This document shows positions 3,446 to 36,616 of a stretch of DNA of 39,796 nt, one piece after another. A model generated the notes under the pieces. It worked only from the letters and a program-made list of their open reading frames with translations. It was not told where the DNA came from and searched no databases. The stretch is from Methanococcoides sp. AM1 (GTDB lineage Archaea > Halobacteriota > Methanosarcinia > Methanosarcinales > Methanosarcinaceae). The stretch's first letter is position 1. The number at the start of each line of letters is the position of its first letter. The DNA is taken from the NCBI RefSeq assembly GCF_900774055.1, contig NZ_CAAGSW010000001.1:1-39796 (forward strand), read 5' to 3'. The position numbers were made by a program, and so were the translations under genes.

Positions 3446-3480
3446 AAAAAAAGAGAACCTGTTAAATTGATCACAGGTTC
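3446..3480 (-). terminator. Hairpin with T-tract ending the nifB-marker 2 operon
   Basis: GAACCTGT (3455-3462) pairs with ACAGGTTC (3473-3480) across a 10-base loop. Read on the minus strand, the stem is followed by CTC and seven T (3446-3452). It lies 30 bases past the marker 2 stop codon and between convergent genes, so it may also slow plus-strand readthrough. Confidence 0.65.
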
Positions 3481-3509: not shown

Positions 3510-4502
3510 TTATATATCATCTGTTTCCATATCGATACCTGTAATGGCATCGGTGTTAAGATCAAAGACAACTGCCTTCCGGTCACCTGAATAAATATCC
3601 ACTTTTTGAGAATCGTTGATCTCACCGACCACAGCCGCAGCAATTCCAACATCTTCAAATATCCGGATACACTCATCACAGTTCTCCGGTTTTGCAGTTA
3701 AAATATAGCCGGTTGCAGGATAGATTTTAAGCCACTGCTCCAGCTCAAGGCCTTCTGGCATAGGGATCTTTGTAACATCCACAGATGCGCCAACTTTGCT
3801 GGTCTCACATAGCATTCCAAGCGTTCCCACGGTTCCCGGATTGCTGATATCCTTTCCTGCTGTCAGCAACTTCTTCTCAGCGAGAGTCTGCATCACAAGG
3901 AAACGGTCGCGAACGGTTTGTGCATCCTTAAAAGAGGTAGTATCCCAGCTGTAAGGGGAATTTTTGCCCACACGGCCGTCCATATCATAGGCAGCTATTA
4001 CTGCATCACCCGGCTTTGCCATGTCGCTTCTGACAATGCAGTCCTTCTTTGCAACACCAATAATAGCAACACCAAGTGAATTATAAGGAGTATCAGGATG
4101 AACATGCCCTCCAACCATGGGGACACCGAACTTCTTTACCCCATCCTTGATACCACGCATCATCTCTTTGCATGCTTCAGAATCACAGGAGGACATGACA
4201 TTGACCATCGCAACAGGTCTTCCACCCATTGCGGAGATGTCATTAACATTTACAACAACGGAAGTATATCCTGTCCACCAGGGACTTTCAAGTGCGATCT
4301 TGCCCCAGATGGCATCGGCAGCAAATAGTATGACTTCATCGCCACCAGTATCGAGTACCGCTGCATCATCGCCAAAATCCACGATGGTCTCACCGTATTC
4401 ACTGCGCACGTCCTCGAACATATTGACAATGTCAGCTATAGGTTTCTTGCGGGTCACACCTTCAAAGTTTCGAAGGTTTGCAGCCAGTTGTTCAATATCC
4501 AA
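3510..4502 (-). CDS. Methanogenesis marker protein 2 (PurM/AIR synthase-like)
   Basis: A 330-residue member of the PurM/selenophosphate-synthetase-like ATP-binding fold. Its opening MDIEQLAANLRNFEGVTRKK is typical of methanogenesis marker 2, a family confined to methanogens and relatives whose biochemical role is unsettled. The glycine-rich VDFGDDAAVL (about residues 40-50) and SAMGGRP (about 89-95) match the nucleotide-binding face of the superfamily. It starts with TTG at 4500-4502 behind AAGGGTATAC. It lies 42 bases behind nifB in the same direction and is followed by a hairpin terminator, so the two form a two-gene operon. A role in maturation of a methanogenic enzyme or metallocofactor is inference. 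Confidence 0.85.
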   Translation of the reverse strand: MDIEQLAANLRNFEGVTRKKPIADIVNMFEDVRSEYGETIVDFGDDAAVLDTGGDEVILFAADAIWGKIALESPWWTGYTSVVVNVNDISAMGGRPVAMVNVMSSCDSEACKEMMRGIKDGVKKFGVPMVGGHVHPDTPYNSLGVAIIGVAKKDCIVRSDMAKPGDAVIAAYDMDGRVGKNSPYSWDTTSFKDAQTVRDRFLVMQTLAEKKLLTAGKDISNPGTVGTLGMLCETSKVGASVDVTKIPMPEGLELEQWLKIYPATGYILTAKPENCDECIRIFEDVGIAAAVVGEINDSQKVDIYSGDRKAVVFDLNTDAITGIDMETDDI

Positions 4503-4544
4503 GTATACCCTTCCCTTATGTTGTTCAGGCAGAACAGAAGAAGA

Positions 4545-5483
4545 TCATTCTTCATGTTCCATCTTTTTTATAGACTCCATTTTGATAACGTTCCTGCGCT
4601 CCTCGCTCATCTGAGACAGGTCCTTGCCAAGAAGACCATATGCATCAGACCTGCACTGGCGGCAGTGGCGCATCTGTTGTACATAAGGCTCACAGAGAGC
4701 CTGTACTTCCTTGCGTTCTTGATCAGAAGGTGGCTCCATGTCTGCAAACTTTGCCTGACAGATAAGAGGCATTATGTTCATGATAAAGACGCCAAGTTCG
4801 CGTACTTTCTTTGCAACCTCTAAAATATGATCCTTGTTGATCTCCGGAATAAGTACCGTATTGATCTTGACAACAAGTCCGGCTTCAACTGCCATCTTTA
4901 TGCCTTCAAGCTGATTCTTGATCAGGATCTCTGCAGCTTCCACCCCTGTGTAGGACTTGCCTTTGTAAGCTATATGGTCCACGATCTTTGCCTGTATCTC
5001 AGGATCAATGGCGTTAAGCGTTACAGTCAGTGTGCTGACACCCGCCCTTAGAAGATCATCCATCTTATCCGGAAGTGCCAATCCGTTTGTACTAAGACAA
5101 AGAGTTACATCAGGGAATTCGTCCTTGATGAGTTCAAGGGTCTCAAAGGTCTCATCATTGGCAAGAGGATCACCAGGACCTGCTACTGCAACTACCTTGA
5201 TGAAAGGATAATCCTTGAGAACAAGCCTTGTCTTTTCTAGTGCTTCCTGAGGGGTCAGTACTTCACTTGTCACACCAGGACGGCTCTCATTTACACAATC
5301 GAACTTGCGATCACAATAATTGCACTGGATGTTGCATTTTGGAGCTACAGCCAGGTGAATGCGGCCATATTTGTGCTGTGCGTCTTTATTATAACAAGGA
5401 TGTTCTGAGATCTTTCTCATAACATCAAGATCAACACCATTTTCATCGTGACATTCGTCAGGGATTTTATCAGTATCAGGCAA
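4545..5483 (-). CDS. nifB: NifB, FeMo-cofactor precursor (L-cluster) radical SAM synthase
   Basis: NifB fuses two 4Fe-4S clusters and inserts carbide from SAM to make the 8Fe-9S-C precursor of nitrogenase cofactor. The radical SAM ligands are C50, C54 and C57 (CNIQCNYC). HPC at 28-30, DCVNESRPGV and the C-terminal RQCRSDAYG are NifB signatures that bind the substrate clusters. It has the stand-alone archaeal form without a NifX domain (312 residues). The start is TTG 5483 because GGAGG lies 7 bases upstream; a TTG at 5525 would add 14 residues but has no clear ribosome site. No nifHDK, nifEN or nifX is present in the window. It is cotranscribed with methanogenesis marker 2, which hints at a role outside nitrogen fixation. 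Confidence 0.93.
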   Translation of the reverse strand: MPDTDKIPDECHDENGVDLDVMRKISEHPCYNKDAQHKYGRIHLAVAPKCNIQCNYCDRKFDCVNESRPGVTSEVLTPQEALEKTRLVLKDYPFIKVVAVAGPGDPLANDETFETLELIKDEFPDVTLCLSTNGLALPDKMDDLLRAGVSTLTVTLNAIDPEIQAKIVDHIAYKGKSYTGVEAAEILIKNQLEGIKMAVEAGLVVKINTVLIPEINKDHILEVAKKVRELGVFIMNIMPLICQAKFADMEPPSDQERKEVQALCEPYVQQMRHCRQCRSDAYGLLGKDLSQMSEERRNVIKMESIKKMEHEE

Positions 5484-5494
5484 AGTTTGTCCTC
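5484..5494 (-). promoter_or_regulatory. Ribosome binding site that sets the nifB TTG start
   Basis: On the minus strand GGAGG is followed by seven bases and TTG (5481-5483). It is the strongest Shine-Dalgarno sequence near the gene and favours the shorter reading over the TTG at 5523-5525. Confidence 0.55.
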
Positions 5495-5558
5495 CAGCAT
5501 TAATAAAATGAAGTCTGCAATTCAATTAGAACGGTTATAGATATAGGTTGTGGAAAGA

Positions 5559-5909
5559 TCACTCCAAACCATTCAGTTCACACCACTTACCATGACCTTC
5601 CCAGACCTTTACAGAAAGCGGATAACCCAGCTTTTCAGACAGGTCTGCATGAATATGCTCACACATATTCTCTGCACTTGGGAATGGGAGAATATCATTA
5701 AGGAGCTTGTGGTCATAGTTCTTCAGGACTTCACGCACGGTCTTCTTGATCTCATAGAAATCCATGACCATTCCGTTTTCCTTTTTCTCGCCCTCGAGAA
5801 CTATCTCTATTTTATAAGTGTGACCATGGACAATGCCACAGGTCTCATGTTCAGGCAAATAATGTGCACTATCGATGTATTCTATTATTCCAAGTCTCAT
5901 TTTTGTCAT
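5559..5909 (-). CDS. queD: 6-carboxytetrahydropterin synthase QueD
   Basis: QueD makes 6-carboxy-5,6,7,8-tetrahydropterin from dihydroneopterin triphosphate, the second step towards preQ0 and archaeosine. The zinc ligands are visible as H16 (SAHYLP) and H28/H30 (VHGH), with the catalytic C24 between them. A DHKLLND segment and the C-terminal WEGHG motif complete the family pattern. At 116 residues it has normal length. Its ATG overlaps the queE stop codon (TAATG), so translation is coupled; an ATG five codons upstream is less likely. It is last in the queC-DUF366-queE-queD operon. Confidence 0.92.
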   Translation of the reverse strand: MTKMRLGIIEYIDSAHYLPEHETCGIVHGHTYKIEIVLEGEKKENGMVMDFYEIKKTVREVLKNYDHKLLNDILPFPSAENMCEHIHADLSEKLGYPLSVKVWEGHGKWCELNGLE

Positions 5910-6628
5910 TATAAACAACCCCACATCTTATGTGTTTGAGGAATTATCAAAGTATCTATTGAATCAAGCAGATCCTTTTGTAACTTAAGCATAACATCAA
6001 TTTCAGGAGCAAGATGTTTCTGTGTCACCGGTTGAAGTACCACACAGGAAACATATCCTGAAATAGCATCTACGATCCCCAGTACGTCATCAGATACCGT
6101 GTCCTTTGTGATGACCAGTTTGCAAAAGCATTCCCTTTCCTTCGTGTTGCGAAGCATGTGAAAACATTCTATGGTCCTTTCAAGATGAGCTGCAAAATCC
6201 TCTCCCTCGAACTCATTAATAAGCTTCACATCCCCTGACACATAGGAGACCTTGTCCTTGATCTTCTTTGCCATATGTGGAAGCGTCATATTAGATTCAA
6301 GGTACAGAGGCCTTGACACATCCAGCTCTGCAATAAAATCGGCCTCAAGAAGAGGTTCTCCGCCTGTGAGGGATATGGAATGAACATTCTCATAGCTATC
6401 CAGCAGCTCACTGACATCCCTCACGCTAAGAGGATTTGGCATGTCTTGGAATACGTTTGTCCCGGGAACTTTTTCAAATTTGCAGACGGTAGGTGTCTCA
6501 ACATTTGTGTCACAGTATGAACAATTGAGATTACAGCCAACGAATCTTACGAAAGCCTGCCTCACGCCCACATGAGGACCTTCCCCCTGAACAGAGCAAA
6601 ATATCTCACTGACCGGCACCTGCATCAT
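5909..6628 (-). CDS. queE: 7-carboxy-7-deazaguanine synthase QueE
   Basis: This radical SAM enzyme contracts 6-carboxytetrahydropterin to 7-carboxy-7-deazaguanine. EIFCSVQGEGPHVG at about 8-21 is the QueE opening. The cluster ligands are C32, C36 and C39 (GCNLNCSYCDT), and TGGEPLL is the SAM-binding GGEP motif. At 239 residues it is the usual size. The start ATG overlaps the DUF366 stop (ATGATG across the junction), and the stop overlaps queD. Together with queC and queD this supplies preQ0, which archaea insert into tRNA position 15 as the precursor of archaeosine. Confidence 0.93.
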   Translation of the reverse strand: MMQVPVSEIFCSVQGEGPHVGVRQAFVRFVGCNLNCSYCDTNVETPTVCKFEKVPGTNVFQDMPNPLSVRDVSELLDSYENVHSISLTGGEPLLEADFIAELDVSRPLYLESNMTLPHMAKKIKDKVSYVSGDVKLINEFEGEDFAAHLERTIECFHMLRNTKERECFCKLVITKDTVSDDVLGIVDAISGYVSCVVLQPVTQKHLAPEIDVMLKLQKDLLDSIDTLIIPQTHKMWGCL

Positions 6629-8638: not shown

Positions 8639-11029
8639 TCAACCATTGCTGTACAATGTACCGTTGTTATACATCTCCAGAACATTTTTAAGCTCCTCTC
8701 CGGAATCGTTCCATGCATCTTCAACCCCAGAACCAGTAGTACCTAATGGATAGGATTCCATCCATGCATCAGCAGCAGCGATGAAATCAACTGATTCACC
8801 ATCTATTACATGAGGATAGTACGGACTACCGGCCATTACATTAAGTTTAGCTGCTACCAACTGGACAAACATAATGTATGGCTTACCTTCATTTGATCCC
8901 ATGATATCGATAGCATCAGACTTGGTGTAAGTTTCGTTCCCGATGGTTATTTCTTCAACTGGCCAATCATCAGGATTATTCTTCCAATATCCTTGGCCCT
9001 TGAGCATCTCCACAAGCTCTTCATTAGTTATACCGAAGTAGTAACTTGGATCCTCATCTGTTGCCAGGAACTCTCCATAAGAGCCGGTCACATTTCCAAT
9101 ATTGCAGTACTGACCCACAATAACCGTACCACTGGCATTGTAAACCCAAACCTCACCGGGTTCGAAGTAGTTATCACCATCACCACCACGCAAGTATAAT
9201 TCCGGACTGACACTGCTATCATTATCCTGCACATTTATGACGAGGTTCACATTTCCTGTGTTGGTAACATTGTAGGTCCATTCAACCGGGTAACCAACTA
9301 GAAGATATGGTCCTATAGGTTCATCAGCATCATAACCATCAGTGAACTTCTCAATGTCGATGGATGCATTTACACCGAAGTAGTGGCTAAGGTCTTCATC
9401 GTAGACTTTCTCATCTTCATAATATGCAGTGACATTGCCAAGGTTCACGTACTGACCGGCAATAGCAATATCGGATGCATTATAGACCCAGACCTCACCA
9501 GGTTCGAAGACACCATCGCCGTCATCACCGCTGATCAGACCACCGACTGAAGTACGGTTATCGAGTACGACAGGATCGGTAAGATTCACATTGCCGGTGT
9601 TATTGACATAATAGGTCCATTCAACAGGAGAACCTACAAGAAGATCAAGACCGGGAGCAGTATCATTGTCATGACCATTGGTATGCTTCTCAAGTTCAAT
9701 GGAAGGGGAAGTTTCGAAGACAGACTCAGTAACACCGAAGTAGTGGCTAAGGTCTTCATCGTAGACTTTCTCGTCTTCATAATATGCAGTGACATTGCCA
9801 AGGTTCACGTACTGACCGGCAGTAGCAACATCGGATGCATTATAGACCCAGACCTCACCGGGTTCGAAGACACCATCGCCGTCATCACCGCTGATCAGAC
9901 CACTGACTGAAGTACGGTTATCAAGCACAACAGGATCTGTAAGATTTACATTACCGGTGTTGTTGACATAATAGGTCCATTCAACAGGAGAACCTACAAG
10001 AAGATCAAGACCGGGAGCAGTATCATTGTCATGACCATTGGTATGCTTCTCAAGGTCAATGGAAGGAGAAGCTTTGAAGACAGGCTCAGTAACACCGAAG
10101 TAGTGGCTAAGGTCTTCATCGTAGACTTTCTCATCTTCATAATAAGCAGTGACATTGCCAAGGTTCACGTACTGACCGGCAGTAGCAAAACCGGATGCAT
10201 TATAGACCCAGACCTCACCGGGTTCGAAGACACCATCACCGTCATCACCGCTGATCAGACCACCGACTGAAGTACGGTTATCAAGCACAACAGGATCTGT
10301 AAGATTTACATTACCGGTGTTGTTGACATAATAGGTCCATTCAACAGGAGAACCTACAAGAAGATCAAGACCGGGAGCAGTATCATTGTCATAACCATTG
10401 GTATGCTTCTCAAGGTCAATGGAAGGGGAAGCTTTGAAGACAGGCTCAGTAACACCGAAGTAGTGGCTAAGGTCTTCATCATATACCATCATGACCCCAT
10501 GGTAAGCTGTCACACTGCCAATGTTAGTATACTGACCCTCTTCAGCTACGCCGCTGGCATTGTAGATCCAAACTTCACTCGAATCCAGGATCTCATTTTC
10601 GTTAGCATCACCACTGAGATACACAGGATTGACACTGCTATCATTATCTGCAACAGCGATATCCTGAAGGGGCAAGTCGCCTGTGTTGGTGACATTATAG
10701 GTCCATTCAACAGGAGAACCTACAATAACTTCAGGGCCAGGAGCATTGTCGCCATCATAGCCATTGGTATGCTTCTCAATATCGATAGAGATCTTATCAT
10801 CGTCAGGACCAATAGTCGTACCACCACCGCTTCCACTTGATCTTGTAACTCCAACACCTTTATCCTTGGAAATTACAAAAGCATCCTCCCATTCAGAGAA
10901 AGTGCTATCATGTCGATCATCTGTAGGATTGGGGGCAAGCCCCGGCGAATTAGTTGAAATGCTAGTGAGACCACTCATTAGCAACGTGATGAAGAGTAGA
11001 AGACCTAATGGTTTGATTATTGGATGCAT
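8639..11029 (-). CDS. Secreted repeat protein with five 120-residue DUF11/DUF7507-like domains
   Basis: A 796-residue exported protein. A hydrophobic signal peptide spans about residues 1-26, followed by a low-complexity linker (SSGSGGGTT) to about 75. Five beta-sandwich repeats follow, each beginning near an IEKHTNG or similar motif and containing SPVEWTY, NTGN, GEVWVYNAS and HYFGV: roughly 78-193, 198-313, 318-433, 438-553 and 556-670. The C-terminal 125 residues are unlike the repeats and start with GQGYWKNNPDDWP. There are many N-glycosylation sequons (NVT, NAS, NGT) and acidic residues. No C-terminal membrane anchor or PGF-type sorting tail is visible, so it is secreted or held by other means. 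The promoter and a GGTGG leader are clear. Ligand and role are unknown; adhesion or cell-envelope function is inferred. Confidence 0.85.
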   Translation of the reverse strand: MHPIIKPLGLLLFITLLMSGLTSISTNSPGLAPNPTDDRHDSTFSEWEDAFVISKDKGVGVTRSSGSGGGTTIGPDDDKISIDIEKHTNGYDGDNAPGPEVIVGSPVEWTYNVTNTGDLPLQDIAVADNDSSVNPVYLSGDANENEILDSSEVWIYNASGVAEEGQYTNIGSVTAYHGVMMVYDEDLSHYFGVTEPVFKASPSIDLEKHTNGYDNDTAPGLDLLVGSPVEWTYYVNNTGNVNLTDPVVLDNRTSVGGLISGDDGDGVFEPGEVWVYNASGFATAGQYVNLGNVTAYYEDEKVYDEDLSHYFGVTEPVFKASPSIDLEKHTNGHDNDTAPGLDLLVGSPVEWTYYVNNTGNVNLTDPVVLDNRTSVSGLISGDDGDGVFEPGEVWVYNASDVATAGQYVNLGNVTAYYEDEKVYDEDLSHYFGVTESVFETSPSIELEKHTNGHDNDTAPGLDLLVGSPVEWTYYVNNTGNVNLTDPVVLDNRTSVGGLISGDDGDGVFEPGEVWVYNASDIAIAGQYVNLGNVTAYYEDEKVYDEDLSHYFGVNASIDIEKFTDGYDADEPIGPYLLVGYPVEWTYNVTNTGNVNLVINVQDNDSSVSPELYLRGGDGDNYFEPGEVWVYNASGTVIVGQYCNIGNVTGSYGEFLATDEDPSYYFGITNEELVEMLKGQGYWKNNPDDWPVEEITIGNETYTKSDAIDIMGSNEGKPYIMFVQLVAAKLNVMAGSPYYPHVIDGESVDFIAAADAWMESYPLGTTGSGVEDAWNDSGEELKNVLEMYNNGTLYSNG
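9361..10440 (-). repeat. Tandem 360-bp in-frame repeats within the surface gene
   Basis: Three near-identical 360-base units (9361-9720, 9721-10080, 10081-10440) keep exact register: AAGTAGTGGCTAAGGTCTTC recurs at the same offset. Comparing 9661-9720 with 10021-10080 gives four mismatches in 60 bases. Flanking units at about 9001-9360 and 10441-10800 have the same period but have diverged. This pattern indicates recent duplication or gene conversion of the central domains. Confidence 0.9.
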
Positions 11030-33245: not shown

Positions 33246-33486
33246 AACCTGAACATAAATCATTTTGATGGCGGAGCGCTAACCGTCAACAAAATTTTAC
33301 CATTTCTGCTCAAAGAGAACTGCCACCATCAGCATATTTCCATTATTACTTTGACCTCTGGAAACCCGGTATGATATTTTCCAACACATTTTAGTTATTA
33401 CCAAAATTTACCCTCAGGTATGATCTGCATCACAAATGTACCTTCGATTAAACTTATGTACTAATTCCTTCATTCATTCACCAATT

Positions 33487-34479
33487 ATGCCCGAATTTGT
33501 GACCTTCTCACGCAATGTTTTCATCCCTGTTACGAACATTTGCAGGAACCGTTGCGGATATTGTACCTTCAGGCGCGACCCGGACCACCCGGAAGCCCGT
33601 CTTATGAGTGCAGAAGAGATTATACAGATCCTGAAAAATGGAAAAGAAGCAGGATGTACTGAAGCGCTTTTTGTTTTTGGAGAATATGCCGAAGAGGTTC
33701 CCGAATATAGAAAGGAACTTAAAAAAATGGGCTATTCCAGCACCATTGAGTATGTCACTGAACTTTGTGAACTTGCCATCGAGATAGGAATGTTGCCGCA
33801 TACCAATGCAGGCATTCTCACCCGGCATGAACTCGAGATGTTAAAACCACTAAACGTTAGCATGGGCCTTATGCTGGAAACAACTGCAGAACTGAAAGCC
33901 CACAGTGAATCTCCCGGAAAAGCTCCTTCAAAACGGATCGAGATGATACGCACTGCCGGAGAACTGCAGATACCTTTCACAACAGGCATACTGGTAGGCA
34001 TCGGAGAAAGCATAGAGGACAGGAAGCATTCCCTGGAAACCATCGCAGCGATCCATAAAGAGTTCGGACATATCCAGGAAGTCATCATCCAGAACTTTAT
34101 GCCTAAACCGAACACACCGATGGCAGATCATGCCCCACCTGCAAAAGAAGAGATGATTCGGACAGTCTCCCTTGCGCGAGAGATACTACCGGATGATGTC
34201 TCTGTTCAGGTCGCACCAAATCTTATTAAGCCCCATATACTGATACAAAATGGAGCTACCGACCTTGGAGGAATTTCTCCCACCACCATCGACTGGATCA
34301 ATCCCGAAGCAGAATGGCCAAGTGTGATCGACCTTCAGCAGATGACAGGAGGGATACCCCTGAAGGAAAGATTACCGATATATCCACATCATATTAGGAA
34401 AGGCTGGTATAGCAACGACCTTTCTGACCTAATCGAAACACTTACCGATAAAAACGGATTCAAGAGGAAACAGCAATGA
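33487..34479 (+). CDS. cofG: 7,8-didemethyl-8-hydroxy-5-deazariboflavin synthase subunit CofG
   Basis: CofG is the radical SAM half that closes the deazaflavin ring of FO, the chromophore of coenzyme F420. The cluster ligands are C19, C23 and C26 (CRNRCGYC). Conserved TGILVGIGE and QEVIIQNFMPKP segments follow. It has 330 residues from ATG 33487, where PEFVTFSRNVFIPVTN matches family N-termini; an ATG 17 codons upstream is unlikely. A TATA-like element about 35 bases before the ATG suggests an almost leaderless mRNA. The stop overlaps the cofH1 start (ATGA). The gap 33246-33486 shows no other gene. Confidence 0.94.
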   Translation: MPEFVTFSRNVFIPVTNICRNRCGYCTFRRDPDHPEARLMSAEEIIQILKNGKEAGCTEALFVFGEYAEEVPEYRKELKKMGYSSTIEYVTELCELAIEIGMLPHTNAGILTRHELEMLKPLNVSMGLMLETTAELKAHSESPGKAPSKRIEMIRTAGELQIPFTTGILVGIGESIEDRKHSLETIAAIHKEFGHIQEVIIQNFMPKPNTPMADHAPPAKEEMIRTVSLAREILPDDVSVQVAPNLIKPHILIQNGATDLGGISPTTIDWINPEAEWPSVIDLQQMTGGIPLKERLPIYPHHIRKGWYSNDLSDLIETLTDKNGFKRKQQ

Positions 34480-35546
34480 TCCCTGAAGATATCGTAGAAA
34501 GAGCATACATGGGTACCACTACCAAAGAAGATGCTCTTAAATTACTGGAAGTGAAACCCTTTGAACTATATGCACTGGCAGACAAGCTAAGATATGAAGC
34601 AGTTGGAAATAACGTCACCTACGTTGTCAACCGTAACATCAATTTCACCGACAGATGTGTCGGAACATGTGGATTCTGTGCATTCAAGGATAAAAAGGGA
34701 TACCTGCTCTCACCTGAACAAATAAGGGAAAAGATTGATGAAGCAATTGCATCAGATGCCACCGAACTGTGTATTCAGGGAGGATTGATGGAGGATGTAA
34801 AACTCGATCTCTACCTGGACATTCTCAGGGCAGTAAAAGAAGACCACCACCACATCCATACTCATTGTTTCTCACCAATGGAAGTTTACCATGCTGCCAC
34901 TTCCAATGGACTGACCATTGAAGAAACCCTGGCTGAACTTAAGAAGAACGGATTGAACACCATGCCAGGGACCGCTGCAGAGATACTGGCAGACCGGGTG
35001 CGCGACATCATCTGCCCGGAAAAGATCACGAGACAGCAGTGGATAGACATAGTAACATCCGCACACCGGGCAGGGATACCCACAACTGCCACGATGATGT
35101 ACGGACATGTAGAAACATGGGAAGAACGCATTGACCACATACTCGCCATCCGTGAGATCCAGAAAAATACCATGGGCTTCACAGAGTTCGTGCCACTTCC
35201 CTTCATGCCTTACAATAACAGGATCGGAGAAGAGATGCTTAAAAACGGCCAGTTCATGACGACAGGAGTGGAAGACCTGAAAGTATATTCACTTGCACGC
35301 ATTTTACTCAATACACATATAGAGAATATTCAGGTAAGCTGGGTAAAACTTGGAAAGAAGCTTGCACAGCTTGCCTTGCTATGCGGTGGCAATGATCTTG
35401 GAGGCACACTAATGGAAGAAAGTATTTCGAGATCAGCAGGTGCATCTAACGGGGAAGTCATCACAGTGGAAGAGCTCGAATGGATCATAAGGGGTGCGGA
35501 AAGGACACCTGTCCAGAGAGACACACTTTACAGGAGCATATTATAA
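34476..35546 (+). CDS. cofH1: FO synthase subunit CofH, copy 1
   Basis: CofH, the other radical SAM half of FO synthase, joins tyrosine to 5-amino-6-ribitylaminouracil; its product goes to CofG. It has 356 residues with cluster ligands C61, C65 and C68 (CVGTCGFC). YGHVETWEERIDHIL and FMPYNNRIGEEML are family segments. ATGA coupling to cofG and TAATG coupling to copy 2 show one polycistronic message. It is clearly paralogous to the next gene. The two copies are intact, and Methanosarcinaceae commonly have both. Confidence 0.94.
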   Translation: MIPEDIVERAYMGTTTKEDALKLLEVKPFELYALADKLRYEAVGNNVTYVVNRNINFTDRCVGTCGFCAFKDKKGYLLSPEQIREKIDEAIASDATELCIQGGLMEDVKLDLYLDILRAVKEDHHHIHTHCFSPMEVYHAATSNGLTIEETLAELKKNGLNTMPGTAAEILADRVRDIICPEKITRQQWIDIVTSAHRAGIPTTATMMYGHVETWEERIDHILAIREIQKNTMGFTEFVPLPFMPYNNRIGEEMLKNGQFMTTGVEDLKVYSLARILLNTHIENIQVSWVKLGKKLAQLALLCGGNDLGGTLMEESISRSAGASNGEVITVEELEWIIRGAERTPVQRDTLYRSIL

Positions 35547-36616
35547 TGACAATTCCCGAAGATATCATTGAACGGGCCTACAAAGGAAGTGCAACAAAAG
35601 AAGATGCACTTAAACTTCTGGATGTAAATCCCTTTGAGCTTTACGCACTGGCAGATGAACTCCGCAAGGAGGCTGTCGGGGATACAGTGACCTATGTCAC
35701 AAACAGGAATGTCTACATCACCAACATGTGCAAAGGAAACTGTGGATTCTGTGCTTTCAGGGAAGGTGAAGGATACATCCTGACCATCGAAGAGATACTT
35801 GAGCAGGTCGGGCAGGCAGAAAAGGCCGGTGCTGTGGAGATCTGCATCCAGGGCGGTTACCTCCCACAACTCGACCTTGAATTTTACAATGAGATCGTAA
35901 AGAGCATACACACCACCTATCCAAATATGACCATACATGGATTCTCCCCAATGGAGATCCATTATGCATCATCCCTTTCAGGAACACCTCTTGAGGATGC
36001 TTTTGCCGAACTGAAAAAGAACGGACTGGGCACACTTACCGGAACATCTGCAGAGATACTTTCGGACCGCGTTCGAAAGATCATATGCGAGGATAAGATA
36101 ACAACCGACCAGTGGATAGAGACAATCAAAGCCTCCCACAGGGTCGGCTTGCGTACCAATGCCACCATAATGTACGGTCATGTGGAAACATGGGAAGAAC
36201 GGTTCGACCATATACTGACAGTGCGTAATATCCAGGAAGAGACCGGAGCATTCACCGAACTGATAACAATGCCTTTCATGCCTTACAACAACCGTGTTGG
36301 TGAGGAGATGCTGAGTTCAGGGAAGTTCATGACCACCGGAACGGAGGATCTCAAACTAATAGCAATTGCAAGAGTTCTGCTCAACAAACAAGTGGACAAC
36401 CTTCAGGCATGCTGGGTCAAGCTCGGCAAGAAGCTTGCACAGGTAGCTTTATCCTGTGGCGCAAATGATCTGGGAGGTACACTTATGGAAGACCAGATCA
36501 CTCTTGCATCCGGAGGAGCGAACGGGGAATACCTATCACCGGAAGAACTGGAGTGGATCATCACAAGTGAAGGCCGCAAACCGATGAGAAGGAATGCATT
36601 ATACGAGGAAATCTAA
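35546..36616 (+). CDS. cofH2: FO synthase subunit CofH, copy 2
   Basis: A second intact CofH of 356 residues, similar along its whole length to copy 1. Ligands are C62, C66 and C69 (CKGNCGFC), and YGHVETWEERFDHIL and FMPYNNRVGEEML are conserved. The start ATG shares one base with the copy 1 stop (TAATG). Differences are spread across the protein, so this is an old duplication, not a recent one. Whether the copies differ in substrate, expression or partner is unknown. Confidence 0.93.
   Translation: MTIPEDIIERAYKGSATKEDALKLLDVNPFELYALADELRKEAVGDTVTYVTNRNVYITNMCKGNCGFCAFREGEGYILTIEEILEQVGQAEKAGAVEICIQGGYLPQLDLEFYNEIVKSIHTTYPNMTIHGFSPMEIHYASSLSGTPLEDAFAELKKNGLGTLTGTSAEILSDRVRKIICEDKITTDQWIETIKASHRVGLRTNATIMYGHVETWEERFDHILTVRNIQEETGAFTELITMPFMPYNNRVGEEMLSSGKFMTTGTEDLKLIAIARVLLNKQVDNLQACWVKLGKKLAQVALSCGANDLGGTLMEDQITLASGGANGEYLSPEELEWIITSEGRKPMRRNALYEEI

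Follow-up and report, generated by a model that had tools for sequence, protein, structure and literature searches.

A nifB-mmp2 gene pair of nitrogenase-free Methanococcoides as a likely cofactor-supply operon for methyl-coenzyme M reductase

Methanococcoides sp. AM1 carries nifB directly ahead of the gene for methanogenesis marker 2 (mmp2), and our analysis indicates that this pair is likely an operon that supplies a cofactor for methyl-coenzyme M reductase (MCR). The DNA analysed, here called the window, is a stretch of 39,796 nt. We consider it very probable that the NifB encoded in it serves MCR activation, a role that was already proposed by Ramirez-Amador et al. 2025 (PMC12176620). Mmp2 probably acts in MCR maturation broadly; that it acts directly on the cluster or its delivery is doubtful.

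Results

nifB and mmp2 form a putative two-gene operon

The nifB gene (4545..5483, minus strand) encodes a stand-alone radical SAM NifB of 312 aa, without a NifX domain and with a TTG start. Its product belongs to the NifB family (TIGR01290, 367.7 bits against a cut-off of 343.65) and matched known structures closely in phmmer searches (4.6e-112 against PDB 6y1x and 3e-77 against the NifB structures 7bi7/7jmb). The motifs CNIQCNYC, HPC and HCRQC, along with C129, were present and conserved in the NifB alignment, so that the protein has both the CX3CX2C motif of radical SAM enzymes and the further Cys/His positions shared by NifB proteins; we take these conserved positions to be the K1/K2 cluster sites. 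NifB builds an [8Fe-9S-C] cluster from two [4Fe-4S] units, SAM and a ninth sulfur, and by homology the NifB of the window would be expected to make the same product. It resembles the NifB proteins of methanogens (PDB 6y1x, 7bi7, 7jmb; Fay et al. 2015) in being a stand-alone radical SAM protein with the motif cysteines and no NifX domain, but differs from them in its setting, a putative two-gene operon with mmp2 in a nitrogenase-free genus.

We place the start of nifB at 5483: the TTG there and the GGAGG ribosome-binding site ahead of it (5491..5495, minus strand) are common to the 10 genus genomes, while a longer reading frame starting at 5525 is not conserved among congeners and was rejected. 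The TTG start of mmp2 (3510..4502, minus strand) is likewise kept in 10/10 genomes. The nifB stop (4545) and the mmp2 start (4502) are separated by a gap of 42 bases on the same strand, as the sequence-only reading of this DNA had claimed, and both genes scored above their profile cut-offs.

Upstream of nifB, the block AACCTATATCTA (5538..5549, minus strand, read from 5549 to 5538) is identical in all 10 genus genomes while its flanking bases vary, and it is probably an archaeal TATA box that directs joint transcription of nifB and mmp2, with a transcript start expected near 5515. Judged from sequence, the two genes are probably co-transcribed as an operon. On the 3' side of mmp2 lies a hairpin with an 8-bp stem and a 10-base loop (GAACCTGT...ACAGGTTC, 3480-3455), followed by seven T at 3452-3446 (whole element 3446..3480, minus strand), which is a plausible terminator. 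The stem-loop and T run fit the single terminator claimed earlier, but the fold was only modestly better than that of shuffled sequences (z -1.18), the element varies within the genus and is not kept in all of its genomes, and a terminator pattern scan missed it because of the 10-base loop, so that this claim is unproven.

The genes further upstream form a queC-DUF366-queE-queD (archaeosine/preQ0) cluster, in which queD (5559..5924, minus strand; TIGR03367, 99.9 bits) is the last gene and a neighbour outside the nifB-mmp2 unit. Most genera of the family have these genes ahead of nifB and queD is just 75 bases from nifB, so nifB-mmp2 might be the mere tail of a que operon and its neighbourhood functionally meaningless. 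We regard this as very improbable, since a promoter-like block separates queD from nifB in every congener and three unrelated gene neighbourhoods bring nifB together with other MCR genes, and we rejected it because three loci (L051, L052 and L055) have nifB-mmp2 but lack the que genes.

Elsewhere in the window, two tandem cofH-like radical SAM genes (34476-36616) follow a cofG-like gene (33436-34479), and positions 8639-11029 encode a predicted secreted protein of 796 aa in which a stretch of about 95 residues recurs several times almost unchanged.

The gene pair is conserved throughout the family

The pairing is not unique to this genome. In a survey of 200 genomes of the class, nifB preceded mmp2 in the same orientation in 80/80 genomes of the window's family, presumably Methanosarcinaceae, that list both genes on one contig, a count drawn from related, not independent, genomes that include many draft assemblies; this count rules out chance adjacency. 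Genera with and without nitrogenase both keep the arrangement. The gap, measured between profile ends, was at most about 205 bases in 59 of these genomes and 0.6-2.3 kb in the other 21, which belong to two Methanosarcina-like genera. The wide gap there is partly due to a tandem second nifB (L057, L058), and inspection of the remaining wide gaps gave no convincing ORF. Four family genomes list the two genes on separate contigs (G133, G156, G181, G189), and the pair was visible on direct inspection in two more (G008, G122). Outside the family, nifB and mmp2 were 0.34-0.37 Mb apart in G007, G073 and G119.

The tandem nifB genes of some Methanosarcina-like genomes (L057:9148-11481 and L058:8735-11071) are divergent, lie between queD and mmp2, and show about 62% and 71-73% identity to nifB of the window. 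Genomes G106, G115, G121 and G126 of genus g5 have a second nifB away from mmp2 (L069, L070, L071, L072), which in G106 is far from nitrogenase genes too.

nifB persists in a genus without nitrogenase

The sequence-only reading had found no nifHDK or nifEN near nifB, and this absence extends beyond the 39,796-nt window, which holds no nitrogenase genes, to the whole genome, whose completeness is 99.93%. A search for nitrogenase alpha (TIGR01862, 1e-60) gave no match in the genome of the window or in any of the 10 genus genomes. The only PF00148 (Oxidored_nitro) match in the genome was a CfbD-like protein of 371 aa, whose gene is flanked by a Mur-ligase-like and a NifH-like gene, an F430-type cfb arrangement as assigned from gene order and known families. 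By these searches the genome encodes no NifD, NifK, NifE or NifN, and on the TIGR01862 result together with the CfbD-like identity of the single PF00148 match we rejected a hidden nitrogenase.

Some nitrogenase-bearing relatives in the family use the same nifB, which would fit a nifB left over from a nitrogenase system since lost, or one serving an undetected nitrogenase-like enzyme. Against this reading, which we find extremely improbable, nifB is intact in 10/10 genomes of the nitrogenase-free genus, and the sole PF00148 protein is CfbD-like; CfbD does not contain the [8Fe-9S-C] cluster (PMC12176620). Another function was considered possible for nifB of Methanocaldococcus, which lacks the nitrogen operator (Lie et al. 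2022, PMC8809328).

nifB is linked to MCR genes in other lineages

In the Methanobacteria loci inspected, nifB is the last and mmp2 the first gene of a run, mmp2-mmp3-mmp6-mmp5-mmp15-mmp17-nifB, with a small gene labelled DUF2111-like between mmp6 and mmp5. In 93/96 genomes that carry both genes on a single contig, nifB has the orientation of mmp2 and lies no more than 10 kb downstream of it. In the exceptional genome G229 the run is broken between mmp15 and mmp17, yet mmp17 and nifB are still 9 bases apart, measured between alignment ends (L187, L188). Since nitrogenase alpha was detected in only 23/120 Methanobacteria genomes and absent from 97/120, the linkage of mmp2 to nifB is independent of nitrogen fixation. 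In several nitrogenase-bearing Methanobacteria genomes, among them G222, G224, G225 and G234, the one nifB detected belongs to the MCR marker run, downstream of mmp2.

A different arrangement was seen in Ca. Methanohalarchaeum thermophilum (one genome, L201:1636-6913), where the order is A2-mcrC-cytochrome-like-HdrD-like-nifB, the two genes after mcrC both being hdr-like, with a gap of 4 bp before nifB, and mcrA is in the same neighbourhood a few kb upstream. A2 and mcrC were identified by TIGR03269 (706 bits) and TIGR03264 (301 bits), respectively. Its McrC keeps 4/4 FeSI/FeSII ligands (C12, H49, C55 and H118 in M. maripaludis numbering), the residues being taken from the alignment with a tag offset of 36. 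The gene order of this organism also places a possible membrane electron donor beside the activation genes and nifB. In Ca. Syntrophoarchaeum (one genome, L196:6300-11031), nifB is directly ahead of mcrB-mcrA-mcrG-like genes; it comes right after a gene for the archaeoflavoprotein AfpA.

Linkage of this kind is not general. In Methanomicrobiales and Methanotrichaceae, and in most of the ANME loci inspected, no MCR gene recurred beside nifB, and a universal nifB-mmp2 pairing was ruled out because, of 80 named mmp2 loci in other lineages, the one from Methanobacteria was alone in having nifB within reach; the survey left out Methanococcales. One Archaeoglobaceae MAG (G201, L116), which may be incomplete, speaks against the tie of NifB to MCR in having mmp2 and two mcrA-like genes with no detectable nifB. 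We found no report linking nifB to mmp or mcr genes in the openly accessible papers searched, and within that literature, in which few subscription papers were covered, the linkage is apparently unreported.

The MCR activation complex is the probable client of NifB

The MCR activation complex purified from M. maripaludis contains McrC, Mmp7, Mmp17, Mmp3 and A2 together with MCR, and three of its clusters were assigned as [8Fe-9S-C] (PMC12176620), in agreement with the nitrogenase-type clusters that the sequence-only reading had placed in this complex. The reported iron content is about 27 Fe per complex. An earlier pull-down gave the same MCR activation partners (PMC9584954). NifB is essential even in nitrogenase-free methanogens and is the probable maker of the clusters (PMC12176620), a proposal based on phylogeny and essentiality; we found no gene-neighbourhood argument in the text of that paper.

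The genome of the window has the genes for A2, Mmp3, Mmp17 and Mmp7 clustered on contig 2 (L195), in the order A2-mmp3-mmp6-mmp5-mmp15-mmp17-mmp7. Its Mmp7, aligned to PDB 8s7v chain H, keeps H84, C90 and C143, which are cluster ligands or contacts. In these respects its machinery is like the complex of PMC12176620; NifB and Mmp2, in contrast, are not subunits of that complex. Mmp2 is unlisted among the purified proteins, and the string "mmp2" does not occur in the text of PMC12176620.

Taken together, the universal presence of nifB in a nitrogenase-free genus (10/10 genomes), its linkage to MCR or MCR-activation genes in four lineages, and the [8Fe-9S-C] clusters of the activation complex (PMC12176620) give good support to a role of NifB in MCR activation, and thereby to the earlier claim that this NifB serves methanogenesis. 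Gene linkage alone does not establish function.

Mmp2 is a PurM-fold protein with lineage-specific neighbours

Mmp2 (330 aa) matches the methanogenesis marker 2 profile over its full length (TIGR03267, 498.5 bits against a cut-off of 365) and contains AIRS (PF00586) and AIRS_C (PF02769) domains. Its AlphaFold model (pLDDT 90.9) gave structural matches to PurL/HypE/SelD/ThiL at Z 25-28, or about 20-28 with PurM included. By sequence and predicted structure it is a member of the PurM/AIRS superfamily near PurL, HypE, SelD and ThiL, which bears out the description of marker 2 as a PurM-like protein. The ATP binding in that description is likely as well, as the invariant D/G/N/K positions and the GGHxHPD motif are consistent with an enzyme that uses ATP. 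Among 33 Mmp2 homologues there is no invariant cysteine, which makes cysteine ligation of a cluster by Mmp2 improbable.

Mmp2 is like HypE/SelD/ThiL/PurL in fold, sequence and the GDDAA and GGH/GGD-type motifs, but it has no conserved cysteine and scores far under the curated cut-offs of those families. It is not a HypE (28.3 against a cut-off of 251.6 bits), as its C-terminus (...ITGIDMETDDI) lacks the HypE cysteine, nor a SelD (69.5 against 125 bits), as its N-terminal loop lacks the catalytic Cys/Sec. The closest NCBIfam sister is the sll0787 family of AIR synthase-like proteins (TIGR04049, 290.7 bits), although Mmp2 falls under its cut-off of 321.3 and that family is bacterial; it presumably belongs to a nitrilase/radical SAM cluster.

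The neighbours of mmp2 change from lineage to lineage. In 62 loci of Methanotrichaceae, Methanomicrobiales and Methanohalarchaeum (L083-L161), mmp4/mtxX comes after mmp2 in the same orientation, an order that in Methanotrichaceae and Methanomicrobiales suggests a functional pair. In ANME-1, mmp2 has a HAD-family gene before it and a cofH-like gene after it (L151, L152, L154, L156, L157, L158, L162), and a relative of this HAD gene is located just upstream of A2 in the genome of the window. Thus mmp2 travels with MCR genes generally, and nifB is one partner among several.

Discussion

In the mechanism that we propose, NifB would join two [4Fe-4S] units, SAM and a ninth sulfur into the [8Fe-9S-C] cluster, and the clusters would be delivered to McrC and Mmp7, the cell having no nitrogenase. 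The three clusters in McrC/Mmp7 would here form the wire that reduces the Ni of F430, as described for M. maripaludis (PMC12176620). Mmp2, as a PurM-fold and presumably ATP-using enzyme, would most likely act in the same MCR maturation pathway.

The part of Mmp2 is where the readings diverge. The earlier suggestion that marker 2 makes or delivers the cluster is favoured by its pairing with nifB in one family and by the Methanobacteria run, where other markers stand between the two genes; it is weakened by the different partners of mmp2 in other orders and because Mmp2 was not reported in the purified complex. In its most specific form, Mmp2 would be an ATP-dependent maturase dedicated to the L-cluster branch of MCR activation, either activating sulfur or a small group for NifB in the manner of SelD/HypE or powering the hand-over to McrC/Mmp7, which we judge unlikely. 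A reading to which we give slightly less than even weight holds that NifB supplies MCR activation while Mmp2 has some other task in connection with MCR, such as an ATP-dependent step linked to Mmp4/MtxX, F430 or the modification of MCR, and is encoded with nifB for the sake of co-regulation alone. The mmp2-mmp4 order in 62 loci of other orders, the HAD-mmp2-cofH-like order in ANME-1, the want of a conserved cysteine able to hold a cluster, and the purified complex in which Mmp2 is unnamed (PMC12176620) all agree with it; an operon-like run common to nifB and mmp2 in two distant lineages, however, goes beyond what random co-regulation would lead one to expect.

Gene order conserved in four lineages favours NifB as the cluster source for the MCR activation complex, and it offers candidates for the missing delivery steps, namely Mmp2 and, in Methanobacteria, also Mmp5, Mmp6 and Mmp15. 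Because several nitrogenase-bearing Methanobacteria carry one detected nifB, located in the MCR run, the data also fit a proposed history in which the [8Fe-9S-C] cluster originated to serve methane metabolism and nitrogen fixation came later. If Mmp2 does prove to be a maturase, methanogens would own a cofactor assembly line separate from nitrogen fixation.
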